A DNA stretch of 64,000 nt from Lutimonas saemankumensis (GTDB lineage: Bacteria > Bacteroidota > Bacteroidia > Flavobacteriales > Flavobacteriaceae), in NCBI RefSeq assembly GCF_020171465.1, contig NZ_JAIUZR010000003.1, positions 744,001-808,000 on the forward strand, written 5' to 3'. Below, piece by piece: positions 2,806 to 24,695 of this stretch (position 1 is its first letter; each line of letters begins with the position of its first letter). The notes under the pieces are model-generated. The model was given only the letters and a program-made list of their open reading frames with translations. It had not been told where the DNA came from and did no database searches. The position numbers and the translations under genes were made by a program.

Positions 2806-5199
2806 ATGAATAAGAAAACATTATCGGAAAGAGATATTTGCACGAAGTTCATTACACCTGCAATCGAAAAAGCAGGATGGGATAGGAATACACAACTGTT
2901 GGAAGAAGTTTCTTTTACAGATGGAAAAATATATGTTCGTGGTAAACTGACCGCCAGAGGAACAAGAAAAAGAGCCGACTATATTCTTTATTACAAGCCT
3001 AACATTCCCATTGCAATTGTAGAAGCTAAAGACAAGAAGCATTCAGTAAGAGCAGGCATGCAACAGGCATTGGGCTATGCTCAGATTTTAGACATTCCTT
3101 GTGTTTTCAGCAGTAATGGAGACGGATTTGTTTTTCATGACAGAACCGCAACGGACGGGAATATTGAAACTGAATTTGACAATGACAACTTCCCCACTCC
3201 TGAAGAACTTTGGCAGAAGTACAAGAAATACAAAGGCATTAAAACACCTGAAACTGAAAAGGTAGTTGCCCAGGATTACTACTTTGACGGCAGTGGCCGC
3301 TCACCAAGATACTACCAACAAATTGCTGTTAACCGAACTGTTGAAGCCATTGCGAAAGGACAAGACAGAATCCTGCTGGTGATGGCAACCGGAACGGGAA
3401 AAACATACACTGCTTTTCAGATCATTCACAGACTATGGAAGAGCGGAGCAAAGAAACGAATCCTGTTTTTAGCTGACCGAAATGCCTTGATTGACCAAAC
3501 CCGAAGAGGCGACTTCAAACACTTCAAAGACAAAATGACGGTGGTTAAACACCGTATGATTGACAAAAGCTATGAAGTGTATTTGGCCTTGTATCAGGGT
3601 TTGTCAGGTGCAGATGAAGAAGCAAATGCCTACAAACAGTTTTCACCTGAATTTTTCGACCTCATTGTCATTGACGAGTGCCACAGAGGAAGTGCAAAGG
3701 AAGACAGTGCATGGCGAGAGATACTCCGCTACTTCAACAAAGCAACGCATATCGGCTTGACCGCAACGCCAAAGGAAACCAAAGAAGTATCGAACATTGA
3801 ATATTTCGGAGATCCGATTTACACCTATTCATTAAAGCAGGGAATTGACGATGGTTTCTTGGCTCCTTATCGAGTAGTACGGGTAAACCTGAATGTGGAT
3901 GCCGAAGGATGGCGACCTGAACAAGGGAAAACCGACAAAGAAGGGAATGAAGTTGAAGACCGCATCTACAACCGAAAAGACTTTGATCGAAACCTGGTTA
4001 TTGAAGAGCGAACGCAAACTGTCGCCCGAAAACTAACAGAGTTTTTGAAAGGCTATGACTGCTTTGCCAAAACCATTGTATTCTGCACCGATATTGATCA
4101 TGCTGAACGTATAGGTTCTGCTTTATCAAACATGAATGCCGACTTGGTGGCGAAAAACCACAAGTACATTATGCAGATCACGGGCGATAATGATGAAGGT
4201 AAACGAGAGTTGGACAACTTCATCAATCCAGAAGAATCCTATCCCGTAATAGCCACCACCTCTGAATTGATGACTACAGGCGTTGATGCTCAGACCTGCA
4301 AAGTGATTGTCTTGGATGCTGAAATTAAGTCCATGACCAAGTTCAAGCAGATTGTGGGGAGAGGAACCCGAATCAATGAAGAGTTTGGGAAAATGTATTT
4401 CACCATTCTCGACTTTAGGAATGTAACCGACCTGTTTGCAGACAAAGACTTTGATGGCGATCCGATTCGGGTAAAACCAGTATCAGAAGACACGGATTTG
4501 AGCGGCATTGTTGATGAAGAAGAAAACATAGACACCTCAATTATTGACGAAGAATCTGGTGAGGAAATTGAAATTGAACCTAAAATCAGATACCCTGAAC
4601 CGCAAACTCCCACAGATAAAGTTCATGAACCAAGAGAAAAGGTTTATGTAAACGGTGTAGATGTTTCGGTTTTGATAAGCCGTGAAATGTATTTCGACAA
4701 TCATGGCAAACCCATAACCACCAGCTTAAAAGATCATACCAAAGAACTAATCAAAGGGCAATACGCTTCTTTGGATGATTTCTTAACCCGTTGGAATTGC
4801 ACAGACAAAAAGGAAGTCATCATCAAAGAATTGGAAGATCAGGGAGTTTTGGTGGAAGCGTTGAGAGATGCAGTAAACCGTGAAGTGGATTTGTTCGACC
4901 TGATTTGCCATGTGGCATTTGAGCAGCCACCTCTTACCCGAAAAGAACGGGCAAACAATGTGAAGAAACGAGACTACTTCACCAAATACGGAGACCAAGC
5001 CCGAAAAGTACTAGAAACACTTTTGGACAAGTACGCTGATGAAGGCGTAACCAACATAGAAAGCATGGACATTCTTAAAGTGAAACCATTAACAGATTAC
5101 GGCTCACCATTAGAAATCATCAAGCAGTTTGGAAGCAAAGCCAAGTATTTGGAAGCAGTAAAAGAATTAGAACAAGAACTTTATAAAACAGGAGCTTAA
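2806..5199 (+). CDS. hsdR: Type I restriction endonuclease subunit R (EcoEI/EcoAI-like)
   Basis: This is the 797-residue motor and nuclease subunit. An N-terminal PD-(D/E)XK nuclease site is visible as Asp58 and 'VEAK' (72-75). The superfamily 2 helicase motifs follow: 'MATGTGKT' (motif I, about 193-200), 'IDECH' (motif II, about 289-293), 'GLTATP' (motif III, about 317-322) and 'IVGRGTR' (motif VI, about 515-521). The C-terminal 200 residues match the EcoEI R_C region that docks onto the methylase. The complex translocates DNA with ATP and cuts unmodified DNA. The stop overlaps the start of hsdM (TAATG), so the subunits are translationally coupled. The gene looks intact. GC is higher than in the genes upstream. 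Confidence 0.95.
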   Translation: MNKKTLSERDICTKFITPAIEKAGWDRNTQLLEEVSFTDGKIYVRGKLTARGTRKRADYILYYKPNIPIAIVEAKDKKHSVRAGMQQALGYAQILDIPCVFSSNGDGFVFHDRTATDGNIETEFDNDNFPTPEELWQKYKKYKGIKTPETEKVVAQDYYFDGSGRSPRYYQQIAVNRTVEAIAKGQDRILLVMATGTGKTYTAFQIIHRLWKSGAKKRILFLADRNALIDQTRRGDFKHFKDKMTVVKHRMIDKSYEVYLALYQGLSGADEEANAYKQFSPEFFDLIVIDECHRGSAKEDSAWREILRYFNKATHIGLTATPKETKEVSNIEYFGDPIYTYSLKQGIDDGFLAPYRVVRVNLNVDAEGWRPEQGKTDKEGNEVEDRIYNRKDFDRNLVIEERTQTVARKLTEFLKGYDCFAKTIVFCTDIDHAERIGSALSNMNADLVAKNHKYIMQITGDNDEGKRELDNFINPEESYPVIATTSELMTTGVDAQTCKVIVLDAEIKSMTKFKQIVGRGTRINEEFGKMYFTILDFRNVTDLFADKDFDGDPIRVKPVSEDTDLSGIVDEEENIDTSIIDEESGEEIEIEPKIRYPEPQTPTDKVHEPREKVYVNGVDVSVLISREMYFDNHGKPITTSLKDHTKELIKGQYASLDDFLTRWNCTDKKEVIIKELEDQGVLVEALRDAVNREVDLFDLICHVAFEQPPLTRKERANNVKKRDYFTKYGDQARKVLETLLDKYADEGVTNIESMDILKVKPLTDYGSPLEIIKQFGSKAKYLEAVKELEQELYKTGA

Positions 5200-6635
5200 T
5201 GGCAAACCTAAAAGGCATATTAGACAGCATCCGCAAAATCATGTGGCAAGACACCGGACTAAACGGTGATGCTCAACGCATTGAGCAGTTGGGGTGGATG
5301 CTATTTTTGAAAATCTTTTCCGATAAAGACAAAGAACTGGAAATCATCAAAGACGATTACGAAAGTCCTATTCCAGCCGAATTTCATTGGGACGAATGGG
5401 CAGGTGATGATGAAGGCATCACAGGTGACGAGTTGCAACAGTTCGTTGACCAAAAACTCTTTCCTACCCTTAAAAACCTGAAAGTGGGTATGAGTGATGA
5501 CCTGGCAAACAAACGTGCCTTGCTGGTTCGGGAAGTATTTGAGGGCAACAACAACTACATGAAAAGCGGCATCAACATCCGTAAGGTGTTGAACAAGCTC
5601 AATGAGATTGATTTCAACATTGCCAAAGACCGTCATGCTTTTGGCGAACTCTACGAAACCATTTTGAAGGAACTGCAGAGTGCAGGTAAAAGTGGCGAGT
5701 TCTACACCCCAAGAGCCATTACGGAGTTTATCTGCGAAATCATGAACCCCCAATTGGGTGAAAAGATACTCGACCCCAGCTGCGGAACAGGTGGTTACCT
5801 CACGGCTGTCATTGAGCATTTGAAAAAGCAGGCCAACAACGTTGAAGAACGCGAAACCATTGCCAAAAACATTGCGGGCTGGGAATACAAACCGCTTCCG
5901 TATTTGCTGGCAACCACCAACCTGATTTTGCACGATATGGAAGTGCCCAACATCCAGTTCCGTGACAGTTTAGACCAACCGCTGAGCAACTACACCGAAA
6001 AGAACCGAGTAAACCTGATTTTGGCGAATCCACCTTTTGGGGGCATAGTAGCTAACAACAACGAAAACAACTTTCCGCAGAATTACCGCACCAAAGAAAG
6101 TGCTGACCTCTTTTTGGTACTTATGGTGCATTTACTGAAAAATGGCGGACGTGCTGGTATTGTTTTACCTGACGGTTCATTAACTGGAGATGGTGTAAAA
6201 GAAAGAGTGAGAAAAAAGTTGCTAGAAGATTGTAACCTGCACACCATTATTCGTTTACCAAATTCTGTTTTCAAACCTTATGCAACGGTGGCAACCAATC
6301 TCCTATTCTTTACCAAAGGTGAGCCCACTAAAGAAGTTTGGTATTATGAACACCGTTTACCAGAAGGCCAAAAAAGTTACAGTAAAACCAAACCGCTACA
6401 ATTATCAGAATTTGAACCAATAAAAGATTGGTGGAATAATAGAGTGGAAAACGACTTAGCTTGGAAGGTTGATATTCAAACTATAACCGATAGGAAATAT
6501 GATTTAGATATCAATAACCCTAACAAAAAAGAAGAGGCTATAGAACATTCGAGTTCAGAGTTAATGACCATGCTGGATGATTCCTTTGAAAGAAGCCATG
6601 AATTACTTAATCATATTAGAGAAGCAGTTCAATGA
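5199..6635 (+). CDS. hsdM: Type I RM DNA adenine methyltransferase subunit M
   Basis: The 478-residue protein has an HsdM N-terminal helical domain (about residues 8-135, including 'LGWMLFLKIFSD') and an N6-adenine methyltransferase domain. The SAM-binding motif I is 'DPSCGTGGYL' (about 192-201) and catalytic motif IV is 'NPPFGG' (about 277-282). It methylates the host site and, with HsdS, forms the core that HsdR joins. It overlaps hsdR by one base and hsdS by four bases (ATGA). Base composition drops sharply after about position 6170, inside this gene, while the reading frame stays intact. Family assignment is secure. Confidence 0.95.
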   Translation: MANLKGILDSIRKIMWQDTGLNGDAQRIEQLGWMLFLKIFSDKDKELEIIKDDYESPIPAEFHWDEWAGDDEGITGDELQQFVDQKLFPTLKNLKVGMSDDLANKRALLVREVFEGNNNYMKSGINIRKVLNKLNEIDFNIAKDRHAFGELYETILKELQSAGKSGEFYTPRAITEFICEIMNPQLGEKILDPSCGTGGYLTAVIEHLKKQANNVEERETIAKNIAGWEYKPLPYLLATTNLILHDMEVPNIQFRDSLDQPLSNYTEKNRVNLILANPPFGGIVANNNENNFPQNYRTKESADLFLVLMVHLLKNGGRAGIVLPDGSLTGDGVKERVRKKLLEDCNLHTIIRLPNSVFKPYATVATNLLFFTKGEPTKEVWYYEHRLPEGQKSYSKTKPLQLSEFEPIKDWWNNRVENDLAWKVDIQTITDRKYDLDINNPNKKEEAIEHSSSELMTMLDDSFERSHELLNHIREAVQ

Positions 6636-7975
6636 GTTGGGTGAAAAAAACATTAGGTGAACTCTGCACCATCCAAAAAGGTAAGATAGGTATTAAGAAA
6701 GCTACTCCGGGTGAATTTCCATTAGTAGTTACGGCCGAAGAAAGACTTTCGCACAACGAATATCATTTTGAAGGCAATGCTGTCATAATTCCTTTGGTTT
6801 CCTCTACAGGTCATGGTCACAAAAGTTTAAAACGCATTCATTTTCAATCAGGCAAGTTCGCAGTTGGCAATATTCTCTGTGCTGTTATCCCAATTGATGA
6901 AAACGTTTTAAGAGCCGATTATCTATACCGCTTTTTGGACTTGAACAGAGAAAAAGAATTAGTAAGTAGGATGAAAGGCATGGCGAATGTAACCTTACCA
7001 ATAAAGGAAATTGCGAAAATTAAAATTCCTGTTCCACCAATTGAAGCTCAAATAGTTTTTGTTCAACAATACTCAATACTTGAAGAAAAAAGCAATGATT
7101 TAGGTGAAGAGATTACCCACCAACTCAATTTAGTAAAGCAACTTCGCAAAGCCTTTTTACGGGAGGCCATGCAGGGTAAGTTAGTTCCACAAGACCCAAA
7201 TGATGAACAGGCCTCTTTAATTCTAGAAAAAATCAAGTTAGAGAAAAAACGCTTGATGAAGGAAAAGAAAATCAAGAAGCAAAAAACACTTCCGCAAATC
7301 CCCGAAGAGGAAATTCCTTTTGAAATACCGGCTAATTGGGTGTGGTGCAGATTTGAAGATATATTAGAATTAACGAACACAAGCCTTAGAAGAGGTCCAT
7401 TTGGTAGCTCTATAAAGAAAAATATGTTTGTCAAACAATCAGCTTATACAACAAAAGTATATGAACAAAAGAATGCTATTTATAAGAATTTTGAATTAGG
7501 CGATTATCATATTGAACTTGAAGAATTTCCAAATTTAAAATCATTTATTGCAAAACCAGGTGACATAATAATAAGTTGTGCTGGAACCATAGGAGAAACA
7601 TACGTCCTGCCAAGTGATGCTCCGAAAGGAATTATAAATCAGGCTTTACTTAAAGTAGTAGTCAATGAAAAAATAATTACAAGCGTTTACTTTACTAAAG
7701 TATTCCAATCATTACTTAAAGACAGAGTCAATAATGATGCAAAAGGGAGTGCCATGAAGAATTTAGGGTCAATAAATTATTTAAAACAAAACCTTAATAT
7801 TCCTCTTCCACCTTTGAAAGAACAAAAACGCATCTTAACCAAACTAGATGGGTTGATGCAGTATTGTGATGAATTGGAGAAAAGCATCGAAGACAGTCAG
7901 CAACAAAATGAGTTGCTTTTGCAGCAGGTGTTGCGAGAGGCGTTGGAGCCGAAAGAAAAGGAGGTTGTAGAATGA
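6632..7975 (+). CDS. hsdS: Type I RM specificity subunit S
   Basis: The 447-residue protein has two target-recognition domains, each ending in the usual 'IPxPPxxxQ' motif and coiled-coil: 'IKIPVPPIEAQ' at about residue 130-140 and 'LNIPLPPLKEQ' at about 388-398. The central conserved region includes 'QLRKAFLREAMQGKLV', seen in many HsdS proteins. TRD1 covers about 5-125 and TRD2 about 225-385. HsdS sets the bipartite recognition sequence; the target cannot be read from here. TRD2 is much more AT-rich than hsdM, which fits exchange of recognition domains. It overlaps hsdM and the next gene by four bases each. Confidence 0.93.
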   Translation: MSWVKKTLGELCTIQKGKIGIKKATPGEFPLVVTAEERLSHNEYHFEGNAVIIPLVSSTGHGHKSLKRIHFQSGKFAVGNILCAVIPIDENVLRADYLYRFLDLNREKELVSRMKGMANVTLPIKEIAKIKIPVPPIEAQIVFVQQYSILEEKSNDLGEEITHQLNLVKQLRKAFLREAMQGKLVPQDPNDEQASLILEKIKLEKKRLMKEKKIKKQKTLPQIPEEEIPFEIPANWVWCRFEDILELTNTSLRRGPFGSSIKKNMFVKQSAYTTKVYEQKNAIYKNFELGDYHIELEEFPNLKSFIAKPGDIIISCAGTIGETYVLPSDAPKGIINQALLKVVVNEKIITSVYFTKVFQSLLKDRVNNDAKGSAMKNLGSINYLKQNLNIPLPPLKEQKRILTKLDGLMQYCDELEKSIEDSQQQNELLLQQVLREALEPKEKEVVE

Positions 7976-9684
7976 GTCTTGAAGCAAAATCACAAGAGTT
8001 AAAAGACTTGGTATCTACATACGATACTCAATGGTTTCTTGGTGATCTCTCTGGCCTTATGAAGAATATCGCTTCAGGAAGAGCACAAGACCAACTTGGC
8101 AAGCTTTCTTCTCCTATGCGACAAATGTATTTTCTCGCTGGTTTGCTGGTATCATCTGATGATACTAATGGAATAGATATGCGATACACTCCTGACAAAT
8201 GGAATCAAATTGTAGAACTACTAAATGAAATTGAACGGGAATACGACAAACTCTTCTTCCCCAAACCAGATGAAGAAATTGATGAGGAATGGAAAAAAAT
8301 AAGACAAGTTGCCATTCCATCCTTCCTTTCCTATTTCAACCAAGGTCCTTTGAACTATGAAGAACAGACCATCAATTGGGTAAATGATCTTTACTCTCAA
8401 CTTGACGTAACGATTGAAGCAGAAACAGGTGTAAAAACGAGTGATTTCATTCAGTTCTACAACAACTTAGATGATCTAGTACAGCGGAAGTTTCAAGGTT
8501 TCAGTACAAGAAAAGACCTATTTCAAGATGAATGGTTGACCTACACCAAAATCCAAATGGGTGTTATTGATGAAGCTCCAGAGGTAATTAAAAAACTCGG
8601 TGAAGAAAGAAGACCTCTTTATACTTTCATGGCTGACCATGGAATCATTAATCGGTTCAAACCAGAAGATTTGGTAACCGCTGAATTGCCACTTGAAAAG
8701 GTCAATGCTATACTTCCTATTCTCACCTGTTCCAGAAACCAAAGCGATTTTCTTTATTATACTTCTACGAGACCCAGCAATCCGCTATATGAATTCCCAA
8801 TTATTGATATTGGAAATGACCTATTTCAGGTTTTTGAAGTTAAGCAGGTCATTCATGCTATTGACGATTTGCTAGAAAGAGTATGCTCTAAAAACGCAAA
8901 AGCAAAGGATAAACTGATTGATAGAAAAGGAAAGCTGCTTGAAAAGCGAATTGTAGAGATTTTTAAGAAGTTTTTCAAAAAAAATTTTAAAGTATTCGAA
9001 GGATACTATGTTGATGGTTGTGAGCAGGATATTCTATTTCTTTGGAAAGATTATGCTTTTATCATTGAAGCGAAAGGATACAATCTTCGCGAACCATTAC
9101 GTGATCCAAACAAAGCCTTCGTTAGGATAAAGGACGACTTTAAAGCCAGCATCGGTTATGGTTATGTACAAACCAAGCGAGTTGAACAAAAATTCGTTGA
9201 CCAAGTACCACTTCGCATTGAAGACAAAGATGGCAACCTGATTGAGGAAATTGACACGACCAAATACGAAGAGAATGACTTTTCGATAATTGTGAACATC
9301 AATTCCTTTGGTCAAATCCAGAATGATCTATCAACTTTATTAGAAGTTGGTGAGGATGATGTCTATCCATGGGTCGTAAAACTTGACGATTTGGAAACCT
9401 TTTTACTGACAATGATTTCGAAGAAAAAGAGACCTCAGGATTTCATCGACTATCTTTTACTAAGAGAAGAATTGCACGGCAAACTCATCTGTTCAGATGA
9501 ACTTGAGGTATCTGGAGGATTCTTGACGGGTGCTATTTCGGAAAGCAAAATCGAAAAAGCTGACACGATAGTTACCACACCGGATTTGCCAGCAATTTTT
9601 GATGAACAATACAACAAGGGAATGGGCTTTGAAAACGAGAAATTATTGGCTGAAAAGAAAAGTGGGAAGTACATATTTTGGTAA
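7972..9684 (+). CDS. Type I RM operon-associated PD-(D/E)XK nuclease-like protein
   Basis: The 570-residue protein has no recognised full-length family. Its middle shows a restriction-type nuclease core: a helix with Glu ('LLEKRIVEIF', about residues 322-331), Asp353 within 'CEQDILFL', and 'IIEAKG' (Glu366, Lys368). This gives the D-x12-ExK spacing of PD-(D/E)XK enzymes. The N-terminal 300 residues are largely helical and unrecognised. It overlaps hsdS by ATGA, so it is a fourth cistron of the hsd operon, which implies a linked job such as an extra effector nuclease. The catalytic reading is inferred from motif spacing only. Confidence 0.7.
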   Translation: MSLEAKSQELKDLVSTYDTQWFLGDLSGLMKNIASGRAQDQLGKLSSPMRQMYFLAGLLVSSDDTNGIDMRYTPDKWNQIVELLNEIEREYDKLFFPKPDEEIDEEWKKIRQVAIPSFLSYFNQGPLNYEEQTINWVNDLYSQLDVTIEAETGVKTSDFIQFYNNLDDLVQRKFQGFSTRKDLFQDEWLTYTKIQMGVIDEAPEVIKKLGEERRPLYTFMADHGIINRFKPEDLVTAELPLEKVNAILPILTCSRNQSDFLYYTSTRPSNPLYEFPIIDIGNDLFQVFEVKQVIHAIDDLLERVCSKNAKAKDKLIDRKGKLLEKRIVEIFKKFFKKNFKVFEGYYVDGCEQDILFLWKDYAFIIEAKGYNLREPLRDPNKAFVRIKDDFKASIGYGYVQTKRVEQKFVDQVPLRIEDKDGNLIEEIDTTKYEENDFSIIVNINSFGQIQNDLSTLLEVGEDDVYPWVVKLDDLETFLLTMISKKKRPQDFIDYLLLREELHGKLICSDELEVSGGFLTGAISESKIEKADTIVTTPDLPAIFDEQYNKGMGFENEKLLAEKKSGKYIFW

Positions 9685-9962
9685 AGCCATCGCACACTTG
9701 TAAGCACATTTACAGGTCACACCAGGCCAACGCTTGACCAAAACCTGCAAAAGAGCTTCCAAGTCCCTGCCCTAGAAAAGAGAAATTTTAAAAAATACCC
9801 CACCGCACAGGACGACATTGAAAATGAAGACTAAAACGAAAAGAAAAATAAAGTACCAAACCACAACAGGTCAAACTTTCTTTAGTTCCATTTTGAAAAA
9901 GAAAGAAGTAAGTATAGAACCTGTTTTATTGACTTAAAAAAAATAGATACGTTTATATATAA
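9685..9962. other. Intergenic gap between hsd operon and GIY-YIG gene
   Basis: These 278 bp hold no convincing gene. The first half is richer in C than its neighbours and has frequent stops. The second half has a 37-codon open frame (9824-9937, ATG to TAA) coding a very basic peptide, with no recognisable similarity, which I do not call as a gene. No clear terminator hairpin was seen. It marks the break between the RM operon and the next transcription unit. Confidence 0.5.
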
Positions 9963-10820
9963 ATGATCAATTCAAATATGAATAAACGACCACAAACCAT
10001 ACAAATATTTCTCCCGGATGGGTCACCCACGAGTATTCGGGAGGCTGAGATAACCAACAGACTTGTGAAGGCAATACTCTTTCCCAGAAATAAGATGCAA
10101 GAAGCCTCAAAACGAGAAATTGTGCACCATACTGGAGTGTATTTTTTATTTGGGACCAATGAAGACAGTTCAAAATCTGTAGTTTACATCGGTGAGGGAG
10201 AAAATTGTTTTAATCGAATTCGATCCCATAATAGAAAAAAAGATTTTTGGACGCATTGTGTAATCGTAACCACCAAAACAGATGAATACACTAAAACAGA
10301 TGGAAAATATCTTGAATATTTTTGTTTAGAAAGGGCCAAGGAGATAGATCGTTACAAAATTGATAACGATACTGGTTCGAAAAAGCCCTCATTATCAGAA
10401 AGTCGAGAATATGATTTACTTGACAATTTTGAAACTGCCAAGATGCTTTTAGCAACATTAGGATATCCCATTTTTGAGGATAAAAGAAAATCTAAAAGAA
10501 ATCGTGAAGTGTTTACCTGTAAGGGGAAAAAAGCGATTGCTAGTGGCGAATTAATTGACGATGGTATTGTGGTTCTTAAAGGAGGGAAGTGCAATTTAGT
10601 GGAAACTCCTACCGCTGGAAACTGGATAAGAAACATGCGTCAGCGATTAATAGATGATGATGTATTAATTGAAGACAATGGAGTACTGGTGTTTCAAAAG
10701 GATCATATTTTTAATTCACCAAGTGCAGCTGCAGGAACCATTCTTGCCAGAAGGGCTAATGGTTGGAAAGAATGGAAGAATAAAGAAGGTATGACTTTGG
10801 ATGAGTTGAAGAGAAAGTAA
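9963..10820 (+). CDS. GIY-YIG nuclease-family protein with C-terminal DUF4357
   Basis: The 285-residue protein has a GIY-YIG fold starting at 'TGVYFLFG' (57-64; GVY replaces GIY) and 'VYIGEGEN' (74-81), with the conserved Arg85 and a later Glu in 'YLEYFCLERA'. The C-terminal part ('NSPSAAAGTILARRANGWKEWK', about 250-271, quoted in part) matches the DUF4357 module found after GIY-YIG in bacterial defence loci. There is no membrane segment. It lies 14 bp upstream of an unknown 539-residue gene, so the three downstream genes probably form an operon. A cutting role on invading DNA or RNA is inferred; an ATG three codons later could also be the start. Confidence 0.82.
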   Translation: MINSNMNKRPQTIQIFLPDGSPTSIREAEITNRLVKAILFPRNKMQEASKREIVHHTGVYFLFGTNEDSSKSVVYIGEGENCFNRIRSHNRKKDFWTHCVIVTTKTDEYTKTDGKYLEYFCLERAKEIDRYKIDNDTGSKKPSLSESREYDLLDNFETAKMLLATLGYPIFEDKRKSKRNREVFTCKGKKAIASGELIDDGIVVLKGGKCNLVETPTAGNWIRNMRQRLIDDDVLIEDNGVLVFQKDHIFNSPSAAAGTILARRANGWKEWKNKEGMTLDELKRK

Positions 10821-10834
10821 TCTTAATTGAAAAA

Positions 10835-12454
10835 ATGGCCACTTACGTTATTGATAAAAATGAAGCCAGAGTTCCTTTTTTAGGAGATCGAATGTCTTTT
10901 ATTACGGGTTTAGATCCCTTAGGACTTCAGAATACATCAAATAAGGTTTATACTTATTTGATGGCTGGATTGAACAATGTAACCTCTCATATTAGAAACT
11001 ATAGTTTTTATTGTTGGTTACTAGATGAATATGCCAAAATAATTACGTCAACAAATCCTTATGAGCAACAAAGGTTTATTAGAAGAGCGGAATATATGAT
11101 TGCATTATTATCGTATCATTCGGAAATATTAGGAATTAATGGTAGACAATATGCTCAAAAAAGGTTTGAAGAGAATCTTCAAGAATTTGATTTAGAAAAG
11201 GGAACTTTCAATACTGATGGATCTACTCCGAATACTTATTGGCAATATTATTTAGGGATCTTTGGCCAGTATTATGTCGGATCACTTAGGCAAATTGGAT
11301 TGATTGATGAACCAATAAATGCTGAGGGCAAACCATTGGGGATATACAGAACAACCTCATCACAAGAAGATATTAATATTTGCGGTAAAGATTTAGCAAA
11401 GGCATTTGATGAGAATATTTCTGATGATGGAAAGATCAAGTTTTTGGATTGTATCGCTAAAGGAAAAGTGAGTATAGAGGAACTTGAAGAATTGGCATTA
11501 GATTTCAACTTAAAGGCGATTAAGAAGAAAAGTAAGGAGTGTGATTTACTGATCGAATTACTCTTAGACGTAAATGAACCTACCTTACTTAAAGAAGAAC
11601 CTAGCTTCTCACGAAAAGAAACCTTAATTCATATTCTAAAATTTTTATCCAACTATAGTTTTGAGAAGTTTGAGCAGCATGATTTCACCATGTTTGCCTA
11701 TGATGTAAAAGGTAAAGTAAATGGAATTATTGACGAGACCTTGACGGGTTGGTATTTATATCAATTTAGTGAGTATTGGCAGGTTGCTTTAACAGGTCTA
11801 TTTAATGGTTGTTTAAATTGGCTTGAAAGAGAAAAAGGACCTGGTTGGATGCCCATCAATGAATTTGTTCAGGGGTGTACAAATGATATTATCAAATATA
11901 TTAATAATGAGAACCTTCTTGATACTGACAAGGGTATTAGCGATTTAGTTTCGGATGTGGAAATATATACTGAAAAAGAGTTGTACGTAAAACTCGTGAG
12001 AAGCAAATCGGAAGAAAGAATGTCATATGGTCTCCTGCTCGTTTTAAGATTATTCAAGGTGAACGAATCATATTTACCTTTTCTAAGATCTTATTCTAAC
12101 AATAACGAAATCAGTAATAACCAGGATAATCAGGAGGTACTTAATTATTACCTCGGATTCAAAAGTTCACTGAATCTTAATCTAGTTACATTTATATCTG
12201 ATTTCCTTTTAAATAAAATTATCCATAGACATCAATATGTTGCCTATCGTAAAATGGGTGGTGGATCGCAGTCTACTCAGAAGTTTATTATTGAAGACGG
12301 CTATTTAAGAATAATTGGCAACTTCGATCCAGGCTTTACAAGTCCGAGGATTGTTAGTTTATTAGAATTTCTACAAGATTTAAATCTTCTTGATAAAGAT
12401 TTTAGACTAACTGATAAGGGTAATGAACTTTTAAATGTCTATAAGGATGATTGA
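10835..12454 (+). CDS. Unknown 539-residue defence-island protein
   Basis: I do not recognise a named family with confidence. Residues 39-67 hold the most distinctive stretch: Tyr-rich, 'YLMAGLNNVTSHIRNYSFY' followed by 'CWLLDEY'. This resembles the 'pGxsxxTxRxRYyxFxxWl' motif I recall from DUF6361-type proteins of defence islands. The rest is helical with many Leu, Glu and aromatic residues and a C-terminal winged-helix-like end ('LLEFLQDLNLLDKDFRLTDKG'). No nuclease, ATPase or membrane motif was seen. It overlaps the downstream PLD-like gene by 8-20 bp and follows the GIY-YIG gene by 14 bp, which argues that the three products work together. Confidence 0.6.
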   Translation: MATYVIDKNEARVPFLGDRMSFITGLDPLGLQNTSNKVYTYLMAGLNNVTSHIRNYSFYCWLLDEYAKIITSTNPYEQQRFIRRAEYMIALLSYHSEILGINGRQYAQKRFEENLQEFDLEKGTFNTDGSTPNTYWQYYLGIFGQYYVGSLRQIGLIDEPINAEGKPLGIYRTTSSQEDINICGKDLAKAFDENISDDGKIKFLDCIAKGKVSIEELEELALDFNLKAIKKKSKECDLLIELLLDVNEPTLLKEEPSFSRKETLIHILKFLSNYSFEKFEQHDFTMFAYDVKGKVNGIIDETLTGWYLYQFSEYWQVALTGLFNGCLNWLEREKGPGWMPINEFVQGCTNDIIKYINNENLLDTDKGISDLVSDVEIYTEKELYVKLVRSKSEERMSYGLLLVLRLFKVNESYLPFLRSYSNNNEISNNQDNQEVLNYYLGFKSSLNLNLVTFISDFLLNKIIHRHQYVAYRKMGGGSQSTQKFIIEDGYLRIIGNFDPGFTSPRIVSLLEFLQDLNLLDKDFRLTDKGNELLNVYKDD

Positions 12455-15311
12455 AAGACAGAATATCCTTGACTTAATAGGTAGAAATAAAAGTAAATAT
12501 TCATCCTGTATTATAACAAGTTTTTCTTTTGATTTTAATTATTTCGAAGGAAGGGTTATGTCCGTTCTAAGACACGCCAATATAAAAAATGTCAACGTAT
12601 TTGTCGATGGAAAATTTCTGGAAAAACACCTAGAAGAAACTACAGGAAATGAGTTTAAACATCATAAATCTTATAGTCTCATCCCAGTTTATGAAATTGG
12701 TGTCTTTCATCCTAAAATCATGCTGCTTACAGGACCTAAACATGGTTTGTTAGTTATCGGTTCAGGAAATCTTACATCTTCCGGCTTAAGTACCAATGAT
12801 GAAGTATGGGGAGCGTTTCATTTAAACTCAATTGACAGCCCAAATACACCTCTTTTTGCTGAAGTATGGAAATATTTACAGCAATATATTAATAGAGTTA
12901 AAGGATTTAATACACAGAAGTTAAGTTGGATAAATCAATATTCGCCCTGGCTTAAAGAAATTGAGGAGTTTGATTCTGATAATTTTATAGAGATCAACAA
13001 AGATTTGTCATTAAGGTTTTTGGGCAACTATCCTAAAAGTTCAATATATCAGCAGTTGGAAGGTATTCTTCCAAAGGAAAGGATAGAAAAATTAACAATT
13101 ATATCACCCTACTTTGATATAAATGGAAAGGTGTTGGAGAACTTCCAGAACGATTTTGATATTGATAAAATGATTTGCATTACTGATTCAGATTTTGGCT
13201 TATTACCTACAAAATTAAATGATCATTTGTGTCAAGTAATTCCGTTTTATGATTGGAAGAATTGTATCAAAGAATTTGATGCTAAGTTTAATCGTCTCCA
13301 TGCGAAAATATTTCAGTTTGAATATGAAAATGGTTGGGAGTATTTTGTTTTAGGAAGCGCAAATTCTACTATCCATGGATTAGGTTCAAATATTGAGAAG
13401 GCCAAAAATGGTGAAGCAAGTATTGTTTTAAAAAGGAAAGGCACCAATGGATTCCTTGCAGATCTTGGGATAAGTATTAAAGCTGCAGCAGCTATTGATT
13501 TACGCTCATTTATTAAACCGTCTTCTCGACCATCTGATGAGATTGTTGCAATTCATGTAATTACGAGAATTGAACATGCTGAAATAAATGGAAATAAGCT
13601 CAATGTATATTTCAAAACTAAACCGGAAGTAGAAAGTGAACTTTTTATCTTTAGTTCTGACAATTCGATTATTGAAACGAAGAAATTATTAGAGTCAGAG
13701 AAAGAGCAAACATTTGATCTGGAAATTTTTGAGGGTTGTTTCAAATTAGCCTTATTTAAGCAAAGTGAACGTATATCAAATTTTTTCTTTATCGATGATG
13801 TTTCCTATTTGTCTAAAACAAATCCGGATCCTAAATATGCGAGTCTAAGCCAAGTTCTGGAAACCTTGATTTCTGATCCTGAGAATGCAGACTATTTGGG
13901 TTTATTTGAGCATTTAGACTATGCTTGGGTAGAAGATGAATTGGATACTAAAAATGCAAATTCCAGGGGTGTATATCCAACGCGAAAGACTGGGAATAGG
14001 TCTGGAAAGAGTTATAAAGAACTGTCACCAGAAGAGTTCGATAGTCTGAGTTCAGTTCAATCCAAGGAAATGGAAGTTTTAAATGATCCAAGTGTTCAAA
14101 TTGCAGATTTATTAAGTCTAACTTCAAAAGGTCTACTAGTTGCTAAGAATGATTTTGAGGAGAGTGTTGAGGAGAAATTAACTAATTTATCTGAAGATGA
14201 AGACGGAACAAAGGATGATTTGATTACTGAAATTTCTGTAGTTAAAGACTCTGGGGAATTGGTTAGAAAGGCAATAATAGGATATCTTAATAAGGCTAGA
14301 AAATTCTATTTATATAATTTACAAGAATTCATAAATTCTAAATCCTTATTCAATGTGCCAAATAGACCAATGGTATACAAAGATCTGTCTTACATGTCAA
14401 TAGCATTAAATTTGATTCATATTTTTTACGAAAAAGGATTTTCAAAATATAGAAAAATATTTGCTGTAAATTATGATCATAAATATGAATTAAAAATCAG
14501 ACAGATTGAAAAACTTTACAGTCTTGAACGAATTGATAACAACGACCCTAACAGAATAAACCTAGTATATTATGGTGTTGAGTTAAAAATGTTCGAGAAA
14601 GTTCAAAATCAATTTGACAAATTAGATTTGAAACTTTGGGTTCATCAAGATGAATACCAAGTAAAATCGCTTCCCGTAAGGTATATTTTACATGGTAATT
14701 ATAAAGGTGAAGGAGGTTCTAATGTCAAATCATATTTAATTGAAATGTTAGGTAGTTATCTAATAAACGCTAATTCTACAAGTGGTTTTAAAAAATATGA
14801 ATACGAATCATTAAATGATAAAACAAAATCACTTCGAAATTCTATTTTTGAAAGAGCAACATTTTTATGTTTAAATCTTCATTGGAAAGATTCTGAATTG
14901 GATTTACGAAATATACTTTTGTTAGATTTATTACATTTTGTCTTACCTGTTTACATTACAAGAGAAAGTATTAAAAGCATAGAAGACAATTTGATATCTA
15001 CCTATGAAACATATAAGAAGAAAGATACTTTTTTTGATTCTAACCTAAGTCACTTTATCAAGTCACTTTTACCAAATTATATGATTTGGAAAAGAAATTT
15101 CGATCATGACAGACAAGCCATTTTAGGATTGGTTTCAGACTTGTCTATCGGAGATTATGTATTCAGCAGTAAAATAGGTTTTGCAAAAATTCATCACAAA
15201 GAAAAGGGACTTCTTCGGTTAGAAAAGGCGGGATTGCCTTGGGATGAATTGATCAAAAAAAACACCTTAAAGATAACCTATCCTGGAGCTAAGATTTTGA
15301 GATTTGCCTAA
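12435..15311 (+). CDS. Large protein with two PLD-like motif sets
   Basis: The 958-residue protein has two phospholipase-D-superfamily motif sets, the arrangement of a two-lobed PLD active site. The first is His92-x-Lys94 with 'GSGNLTSSG' (109-117). The second is 'HAKIF' near residue 290 with 'GSANSTIHG' near 306-314. Both lack the canonical Asp six residues after the Lys, as many PLD-like nucleases do. Residues beyond about 340 are unrecognised and mostly helical, with an acidic stretch at about 575-600. PLD-like proteins in defence loci often cut nucleic acid (DISARM DrmC and DpdK are examples from established knowledge). It overlaps the upstream gene; a start at 12447 would shorten the overlap to 8 bp. 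Substrate unknown. Confidence 0.75.
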   Translation: MSIRMIERQNILDLIGRNKSKYSSCIITSFSFDFNYFEGRVMSVLRHANIKNVNVFVDGKFLEKHLEETTGNEFKHHKSYSLIPVYEIGVFHPKIMLLTGPKHGLLVIGSGNLTSSGLSTNDEVWGAFHLNSIDSPNTPLFAEVWKYLQQYINRVKGFNTQKLSWINQYSPWLKEIEEFDSDNFIEINKDLSLRFLGNYPKSSIYQQLEGILPKERIEKLTIISPYFDINGKVLENFQNDFDIDKMICITDSDFGLLPTKLNDHLCQVIPFYDWKNCIKEFDAKFNRLHAKIFQFEYENGWEYFVLGSANSTIHGLGSNIEKAKNGEASIVLKRKGTNGFLADLGISIKAAAAIDLRSFIKPSSRPSDEIVAIHVITRIEHAEINGNKLNVYFKTKPEVESELFIFSSDNSIIETKKLLESEKEQTFDLEIFEGCFKLALFKQSERISNFFFIDDVSYLSKTNPDPKYASLSQVLETLISDPENADYLGLFEHLDYAWVEDELDTKNANSRGVYPTRKTGNRSGKSYKELSPEEFDSLSSVQSKEMEVLNDPSVQIADLLSLTSKGLLVAKNDFEESVEEKLTNLSEDEDGTKDDLITEISVVKDSGELVRKAIIGYLNKARKFYLYNLQEFINSKSLFNVPNRPMVYKDLSYMSIALNLIHIFYEKGFSKYRKIFAVNYDHKYELKIRQIEKLYSLERIDNNDPNRINLVYYGVELKMFEKVQNQFDKLDLKLWVHQDEYQVKSLPVRYILHGNYKGEGGSNVKSYLIEMLGSYLINANSTSGFKKYEYESLNDKTKSLRNSIFERATFLCLNLHWKDSELDLRNILLLDLLHFVLPVYITRESIKSIEDNLISTYETYKKKDTFFDSNLSHFIKSLLPNYMIWKRNFDHDRQAILGLVSDLSIGDYVFSSKIGFAKIHHKEKGLLRLEKAGLPWDELIKKNTLKITYPGAKILRFA

Positions 15312-23474: not shown

Positions 23475-24695
23475 ATGAAAAAGAAAACTATTAAAATTAA
23501 ATTGAGCTCGTTTAAATTTCTTTTATTCCTGCCCATACTATTACTCTCATATTGTGACAGTAATTTAGAAGAACCCGTTCTTAATTCAGAAAAGGGACTA
23601 TCTAAAGACGCTAAGGTATTTTCATTAATGAAAGCTGCCGTTCAAAGCGATTCGGATAAATACTCGACCAGTAACAAAACTGACTTGGCTAAAGGAACTG
23701 AAACGGAAACGGATGATCAATGTACTTACTTTTTATATCCAATGTACATTGACGTTTATGTAGGCGACAATCCTGTTCCGGAGGAGAAAGAAATTAATTC
23801 AGATGAGGAATTAATTGCATTTATAGATGGATTTACTTTTGAAGAGGAACTCTCTATTGCAACCACGCCTAATTATGAAATGTACATTCGATTCCCAATT
23901 ATATTACTGGACTCTGATGGCGTTGAAACGGAATTGAATAATTTAATTGAACTGGAAGGAACTTTGGAAATGGCTGTTGAAGTCTGTGCCAGTCTGGAAA
24001 ACGATGGTTCCGGTAGTGGTTCTGATGACGGTTCTGGCAGTGGTTCTGATGACGGTTCCGGTAGTGGTACTGAAGATGGTTCTGGCGGTGGTACTGATGA
24101 TGGATCAGGAAGCGGTACTGATGATGGTTCCGGTAGTGGTACTGATGATGGTTCCGGTAGTGGTACTGACGACGGTTCCGGAAGTGGTTCTGACGACGGT
24201 TCCGATAGTGGTACTGACGGTGGTTCCGGTAGTGGTTCTGACGATGGTTCAGGCAGTGGTACTGACGACGGTTCCGGTAGTGGTTCTGATGACGGTACCG
24301 GTAGTGGTTCTGATGATGGTTCCGGTAGTGGTTCTGACGATGGTTCAGGTAGTGGATCTGATGATGGTTCAGGCAGTGGTTCTGATAATGGTTCCGGAGA
24401 AAGTTCTGACGATAGTTCCGGAGAAAGTTCTGATGATGATTCCGGTAGCGGTTCTGACGATGGTTCCGGTAGTGGTTCTGATGACGGTTCAGGAGAAAGT
24501 TCTGATAATGGTTCAGAAGAGGAATCACTGAGTACGGATGAAAACGATTCAGATTCCGAATATGAGTATTGTGATAAAAACAAGAAAAAAGTAATTATAT
24601 GTCATAAGGGTAAAACCATATGTGTAAGTATCAATGCTCTTTGGGGGCATTTGTATCACCATTCAGAGGATACCCTCGGAAGCTGTGAAGATTAA
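23475..24695 (+). CDS. Lipoprotein with 8-residue Asp-Gly-Ser repeats and a Cys/His C-terminal domain
   Basis: The 406-residue protein has a lipoprotein signal ('LLLSYCDSN', Cys near 27). A globular part follows (about 30-175, with 'FLYPMYIDVYVGDNPVP' and 'MYIRFPIILLDSDGVE'). Then come about 21 copies of an 8-residue unit, consensus DGSGSG(S/T)D, from about residue 177 to 345. A C-terminal domain contains 'CDKNKKKVIICHKGKTICV' and 'ALWGHLYHHSEDTLGSC'. I have seen similar 'CHKGKT.xVSxNAxxxHLxHGDxxGxC' tails in other Bacteroidota surface proteins. The repeat is strongly acidic and may bind Ca2+ or act as a flexible stalk; the tail could bind metal. A strong terminator follows. Confidence 0.8.
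   Translation: MKKKTIKIKLSSFKFLLFLPILLLSYCDSNLEEPVLNSEKGLSKDAKVFSLMKAAVQSDSDKYSTSNKTDLAKGTETETDDQCTYFLYPMYIDVYVGDNPVPEEKEINSDEELIAFIDGFTFEEELSIATTPNYEMYIRFPIILLDSDGVETELNNLIELEGTLEMAVEVCASLENDGSGSGSDDGSGSGSDDGSGSGTEDGSGGGTDDGSGSGTDDGSGSGTDDGSGSGTDDGSGSGSDDGSDSGTDGGSGSGSDDGSGSGTDDGSGSGSDDGTGSGSDDGSGSGSDDGSGSGSDDGSGSGSDNGSGESSDDSSGESSDDDSGSGSDDGSGSGSDDGSGESSDNGSEEESLSTDENDSDSEYEYCDKNKKKVIICHKGKTICVSINALWGHLYHHSEDTLGSCED
24003..24506 (+). repeat. In-frame 24-bp tandem repeat tract
   Basis: About 21 imperfect copies of a 24-bp unit (like GGTTCCGGTAGTGGTTCTGA plus TGAC) encode the DGSGSG(S/T)D repeats. Differences are mostly at third codon positions or switch Ser to Thr. The first and last few units (with 'GESSD') are the most divergent, as expected for a tract that expands from its middle. 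Confidence 0.88.

Follow-up and report, generated by a model that had tools for sequence, protein, structure and literature searches.

Three adjacent genes on the + strand occupy positions 9963-15311 of the 64,000-nucleotide stretch of Lutimonas saemankumensis DNA analysed here (contig NZ_JAIUZR010000003.1; the whole stretch is called the window below). The first encodes a 285-residue protein with GIY-YIG and DUF4357 matches (gene 1, 9963-10820), the second a 539-residue protein that we call MID (gene 2, 10835-12454), and the third a 958-residue protein with a PLD-type domain that we call PLD (gene 3, 12435-15311). Gene 1 and MID are separated by 14 bp, and MID overlaps PLD by 20 nt, or by 8 nt if PLD starts at its second ATG, in agreement with the spacing given in a preliminary description that had taken all three genes for a candidate undescribed defence operon. 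Here we report that the conserved unit is the MID-PLD pair, made of a possible distant ZacA/DUF6361 relative and a ZacB-related protein, with gene 1 as a neighbour outside it, and we weigh how this pair may relate to the defence system Azaca and to other named systems.

The unit of conservation

Relatives of MID were sought independently of PLD in 395 Bacteroidota genomes, GTDB contigs, plasmids and IMG/VR, and in all 33 loci so gathered (from Bacteroidota, Pseudomonadota plasmids and IMG/VR contigs) the next gene on the same strand encodes PLD. The gap between the two is 1 bp or less in 32 of the 33; the exception is a Pontibacter locus (L011) with an in-frame stop near the start of its PLD gene (~9788, in the N-terminus), either a broken copy or a sequencing error. 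Full-length MID and full-length PLD are found in the same 6 of the 395 Bacteroidota genomes, after two of eight MID genomes were dropped (G109 and G011, ~19 bits each, the latter a 196-residue fragment without PLD) and six long matches (E < 1e-80) were kept from 17 PLD places. Five neighbourhoods and one Azaca locus (G215) were inspected among the other eleven places, and five were left out; the inspected short places comprised two trios resembling PDC-M27, a C-terminal remnant (L091), and otherwise unrelated or short matches. Locus L091 (10231-11616 in genome G002) holds a 461-residue open reading frame (ORF) corresponding to the C-terminal half of the PLD family only; it follows genes for an integrase-core transposase and an AAA_15 protein and is probably a remnant. 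The plasmid sample holds nine of 15 records (two Myroides copies, one Sphingobium copy and three short Rhizobium matches were left out), and one 44-residue IMG/VR row (L032) was dropped; phage records searched with the L025 protein as query gave no match. Distances among MID proteins correlate with those among PLD proteins (r 0.974 over 32 loci), a value that none of 2000 shuffles reached and that is expected of any co-inherited pair. The spread is patchy, as the pair occurs in 6 of 395 genomes of the phylum, and MID in 1 of 22 genomes of the window's genus and 1 of 6 near-complete ones.

Gene 1 does not follow this pattern. Its homologues occur in 28 of the 395 Bacteroidota genomes, 27 of which lack the pair, and in only one of the six pair genomes, the window's own, where chance predicts 0.43. 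Searching the 33 loci with phmmer (E 1e-3) placed a homologue close to the pair in two, namely the window and L025, and in L025 it is on the opposite strand; an annotated GIY-YIG protein in L052 went unmatched by the gene 1 search at the same threshold. Because gene 1 co-occurs with the pair only as chance predicts and stands near it in 2 of 33 loci, we regard it as a passenger, and we rejected the trio as the unit. That all three genes work as one defence system, as initially proposed, is thus very improbable despite their close same-strand spacing in the window and the homologue in L025; as a conserved unit the trio is refuted, and what could remain is a local functional link. Gene 1 itself matches the PADLOC model PDC-S14 over its full length (residues 4-284, E 1.1e-108). 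Its earlier assignment to GIY-YIG plus DUF4357 stands for the second domain (E 1.5e-23), while the GIY-YIG match falls under the Pfam cut-off (E 0.0055).

The PLD and MID proteins

PLD matches PLDc_2 (E 6.2e-8) and carries two HxK-GSxN half sites within one chain in 33 of 33 loci. The first consists of HxK at H92 and K94 (12708-12716), GSxN at residues 109-112 (12759-12770) and E123 (12801-12803); the second of HxK at H289 and K291 (13299-13307), GSxN at residues 307-310 (13353-13364) and E327 (13413-13415). Eleven motif residues are invariant throughout (H92, K94, S110, N112, E123, H289, K291, G307, S308, N310 and E327), and the spacing of the H, N and E residues presumably resembles that of TDP1 and BfiI. 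The AlphaFold2 model (mean predicted local distance difference test score, pLDDT, 77.6; predicted template modelling score 0.56) gives a TDP1/PLD fold over approximately residues 3-369, so that the fold domain, as delimited by model and fold search, spans residues 1-369 (12435-13541). In Foldseek the top 44 rows are all TDP1, and a second look with VIA-align, whose rows span residues 3-369, again placed TDP1 first (Z 17.6, root-mean-square deviation 4.3, 322 residues aligned). The remaining C-terminal region (residues 370-958, 13542-15308) is modelled as a beta-rich part at ~379-442, low-confidence linkers and an alpha/beta part, and yielded no Pfam match in the four members scanned. Both motif sets seen in the preliminary description are thus present and invariant, the ~600 extra residues it counted come to ~590 beyond the fold, and nuclease-type folds are supported at the level of prediction.

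MID, previously described as unrecognised, drew no match from PADLOC at E 1, and none from Pfam or NCBIfam that passed the cut-off. Its predicted structure is mainly helical (pLDDT 84.8) and has no match at E 0.001 in the Protein Data Bank (PDB) or BFVD; a sequence search of solved structures with the MID and PLD profiles likewise gave no match. A conserved N-terminal motif (residues 25-61, from GLDPLGLQN to YSFYCW; 10907-11017) lies inside the stretch that MID has in common with ZacA/DUF6361, and H466 and K473, at the end of a long helix, are invariant in 23 of 23 family members. This helix end is followed by a winged-helix-like terminus (together residues 465-536, 12227-12442), a hint taken from weak winged helix-turn-helix matches and from two rows in the second look (MukE-MukF, Z 4.8; Mtr4, Z 4.5); the best row there, FokI (chain residues 8-281, Z 5.8, root-mean-square deviation 5.2, 205 aligned), is within the noise stated for the tool and serves as a lead at most. 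The resemblance to DUF6361 suggested at first holds weakly, in that the model touches 3 of 23 members at E <=1 (best E 0.07) and hhalign finds the shared N-terminal motif. PADLOC ZacA touches 15 of 23 at the same threshold (best 1.5e-5), the window's MID not being among them.

Two closely linked, overlapping genes of which the smaller comes first recall a toxin-antitoxin module, in which PLD would be toxic, MID would neutralise it and repress expression through its winged-helix-like (if weakly matched) end, and plasmid maintenance would come before any role in defence; nine plasmid records do carry the pair. However, both proteins are very large for such a module, the closest relative that has a name, Azaca, acts against phages, and on chromosomes the pair clusters with restriction genes, so that we think this explanation improbable.

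Genomic surroundings

Upstream of gene 1 on the + strand lies a type I restriction-modification (RM) operon (2806-9684) in which library scans identify hsdR (2806-5199), hsdM (5199-6635) and hsdS (6632-7975). A 570-residue gene (7972-9684) overlaps the hsdS stop by 4 bp and is an unnamed fourth gene of this operon; its protein has a weak NERD match (E 0.0019) and a single PADLOC match, to PDC-M44A (E 0.026). This gene and a further 278 bp separate the RM operon from gene 1, and the wording "directly behind" a type I operon, right as to the operon upstream, was therefore slightly loose. Ahead of hsdR, at 1163-2676 on the + strand, are genes with a bPH domain, a SAD/SRA domain and DUF6438, the SRA gene being confined, within the genus, to 1 of 22 genomes. 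Promoter and terminator scans were uninformative (21 promoter-like sites against 25.5 in shuffles, one terminator-like site against 2.6), and no tRNA was found in window positions 1-30000. Further downstream, ~21 copies of a 24-base repeat (24003-24514) lie within an ORF at 23475-24695, a stretch that aligns ambiguously with the close relative G432.

G432 is collinear with the window genome on both sides of an island, which in the window genome measures ~16.6 kb (about -975 to 15600) and holds the SRA gene, the type I RM operon, the GIY-YIG gene and the pair. In G432 the island is 6.3 kb long and holds a subtilase, an EcoRI-type methylase and a GmrSD/HNH protein; since another restriction system thus occupies the same collinear site, the site is a defence hot spot. 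Elsewhere the pair's neighbours include Zorya genes, OloA, MkoA-like and DpdF-like proteins, and an ApeA-type HEPN protein. Restriction genes are found near the pair more often than chance would place them there. Of nine mapped genomes, five have a strong N6_Mtase gene no more than 8 kb from MID, where 0.09 would be expected. With a limit of 12 kb the number rises to eight, where 0.13 would be expected (G351, at 12,048 bp, counted as a miss); this limit was chosen after the distances had been seen, which makes the 8-kb figure the fairer one. This test used nine of the 32 records searched, with the contig match of G404 assumed from its numbering. Left out were G104 (a 5-kb contig), five viral and nine plasmid records, seven genomes of uncertain contig placement (G395, G396, G399, G400, G401, G405 and G406) and G402, a miss with one weak hit only; L017 was also outside the test. 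Of the 33 loci, 17 have a type I RM match no more than 8 kb away, which in one of them (L009) is only a ResIII-type helicase. In four loci (L010, L017, L020 and L022) a same-strand hsdR homologue follows PLD within ~20 bp, the contig end cutting it in L010 and L020, and in L017 and L022 the pair is inserted between hsdS and hsdR. The defence-island setting proposed for the locus is supported by these neighbourhoods.

Such closeness raises the question of whether the pair serves type I RM as an accessory and deals a second strike, its nuclease being set free once a phage anti-restriction protein inhibits the RM complex. PrrC in EcoprrI provides a model for a nuclease of this kind. The insertions between hsdS and hsdR and the N6_Mtase genes up to 12 kb from MID in 8 of 9 mapped genomes would fit, but in 16 of 33 loci the available stretch, short in several of them, shows no type I RM match, and 4 of 9 plasmid records carry no N6_Mtase at all. 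We give this explanation little credence.

Kinship with Azaca and comparison with known systems

Azaca, reportedly named by Millman and colleagues in 2022, is said to comprise ZacA, ZacB and ZacC. Passages of PMC12278908 count ZacC among the superfamily 1 and 2 helicases, which bears out the Azaca name for the Zac genes, and passages of PMC10952713 list a PLD-like domain for Azaca. We gathered seven Azaca-type loci (L036, L037 and L045-L049) from two of three ZacA genomes, the third being a MID, and from five of 45 plasmid records picked from the listed rows; ZacA is in pieces in L049 and ZacB in L046. By hhalign, PLD aligns with ZacB at 98.4% probability (E 1e-14) over 338 columns with both half sites matched, and MID with ZacA at 24.9% (E 8e-4) over 90 N-terminal columns, while crossed comparisons between the A and B sides give 0.1-0.2%. 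PADLOC ZacB matches 19 of 19 PLD members (E 0.01); furthermore, our own ZacB profile finds 28 of 33 pair loci and our own PLD profile all seven Azaca-type loci (E 1e-3). ZacC is present in all seven of these, each scoring at least 646 bits when left out of the profile built from them. Among the 33 pair loci just one, L052, has a ZacC-like gene; it encodes an SNF2 helicase and stands two genes ahead of MID. A ZacA scan of IMG/VR found no relative.

We lean towards the view that MID-PLD is a two-gene defence module of the same stock as ZacA-ZacB that does without ZacC, and we propose a mechanism to go with it. The analysis establishes the pairing, the invariant motifs, the predicted PLD fold, the kinship with ZacB, the absence of ZacC bar one locus and the defence-island setting; the defence role, DNA as substrate and the division of labour between sensor and effector are inferred. 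PLD would build one TDP1-like active site from its two HxK-GSxN-E half sites and would probably cut nucleic acid by a metal-free phosphohistidine route. MID would probably keep PLD inactive and recognise, or load onto, the target, so that invading DNA would be cut only once target recognition had released PLD. Two features may stand in for the missing helicase: the large C-terminal region of PLD and the greater length of MID. Azaca A-B and MID-PLD may share one ancestor as a pair, the ZacA side of this kinship being weak.

Several points weigh against this reading. The defence activity of the pair is a prediction from sequence and setting. Kinship between MID and ZacA appears weak and confined to the N-terminus, our own ZacA profile finding 7 of 33 MID proteins and our own MID profile none of seven ZacA proteins, and the role of MID is a guess because its model has no significant solved-fold match. 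The PLD fold is also used by lipid enzymes and polyphosphate kinase, and fold alone does not prove a nuclease, since the scores of vaccinia F13 (Z 17.3) and of a phospholipase D (17.0) are level with that of TDP1 (17.6). Poor conservation of the C-terminal half of PLD outside Bacteroidota weakens its suggested part as helicase substitute. Lastly, a helicase gene of one family or another is found no more than 8 kb away in 19 of 33 loci, or 20 with an HsdR piece in L025, as found by phmmer with ten helicase queries in the sequence stretch around each locus. With helicases near so many loci, the pair could possibly be served by one in trans: an Azaca-type nuclease complex would borrow a translocase from its neighbourhood, most often the HsdR of a linked type I RM system, as the hsdR homologues directly behind PLD and the frequent type I matches described above might suggest. 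However, 14 of 33 loci show no helicase in the available stretch, eight of these with more than 4 kb available on each side (among them L025, whose HsdR piece is 6.8 kb away), and the helicases nearby are of differing kinds. Moreover, in a Haliscomenobacter plasmid (L045, 3013-14245) an Azaca trio with its own ZacC interrupts a type I operon, with hsdS on one side and hsdR on the other, and such a location is therefore independent of lacking ZacC. We consider a borrowed helicase unlikely, if less so than an RM accessory or a toxin-antitoxin module.

Beyond the preferred reading of a ZacC-free module of ZacA-ZacB stock, it is plausible, though a little short of probable, that MID-PLD is a separate, undescribed two-gene anti-phage system, present in two phyla or more. 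Its TDP1-fold nuclease would then be both directed and held in check by a partner whose fold has no known match, and would work without a helicase of its own and without hydrolysing nucleotides. If true, Azaca would have begun as its A-B half, a unit for sensing and cutting, and would have gained the helicase later. A natural helicase-free version would uncouple DNA unwinding from sensing and cutting in a two-protein system small enough to purify. The gene pair is named neither by Pfam, by PADLOC 2023 (family members scanned) or by NCBIfam 2026 (window proteins only) nor in the literature searched, subscription papers and recent tool catalogues having been beyond reach. The passages available of PMC12839542, PMC12458937, PMC13092281 and PMC9142583 do not describe it, and the literature searched held no mention of DUF6361 and no paper on the Azaca mechanism. 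The earlier statement that no library names these genes is borne out, whereas the wider one that they match no named system has to be qualified by their relatives ZacA and ZacB.

Comparison with known systems starts from the fold. TDP1, PLD3 and PLD4 share with PLD the fold and two half sites per chain (second-look Z of 15.7-17.6 for TDP1 and 15.1-16.2 for PLD3/PLD4, the best rows being 16.2 for PLD3 and 15.8 for PLD4), but are only 11-15% identical to it; they are not known to have an operon partner, and they serve other biological roles. R.NgoAVII and SauUSI match the PLD domain (Foldseek E ~2e-4 each) over only 163-166 columns, and differ from the pair in domain make-up and partner protein. 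DISARM DrmC and Dpd DpdK are similar in a PLD motif half, DrmC being touched by 16 of 19 PLD members and DpdK by 5 of 19, yet the best DrmC model is 153 positions long and contains a single PLD unit. We rejected filing under DISARM on the DrmC matches, as no DrmA or DrmB was among the best 25 PADLOC matches listed for each of seven window proteins (2806-15311). PDC-M27 has a related PLD protein, PDC-M27B being matched by 12 of 19 PLD members. In the two M27-like trios seen here (L092, 6022-12393; L093, 6609-12783), an unrecognised protein of 380-430 residues accompanies a PLD protein of ~690 residues and a ZacC-like helicase; these differ from the pair in a first gene unmatched by MID or ZacA profiles and in that third, helicase gene. 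Azaca comes closest, with gene order A then B as in MID then PLD, a B-type PLD protein with two half sites that is homologous over 338 columns, and an N-terminal motif of ZacA that recurs in MID. It differs in the lengths of its proteins (ZacA 388-419 and most ZacB 605-662 residues, against 539 and 958 in the window) and in that PADLOC ZacA does not match the window's MID at E <=1. Filing the pair as Azaca was rejected because the defining gene, ZacC, is absent in 32 of 33 loci; on the best reading of this comparison, the pair is a variant of the Azaca kind without the helicase, and Azaca is its nearest named relative.

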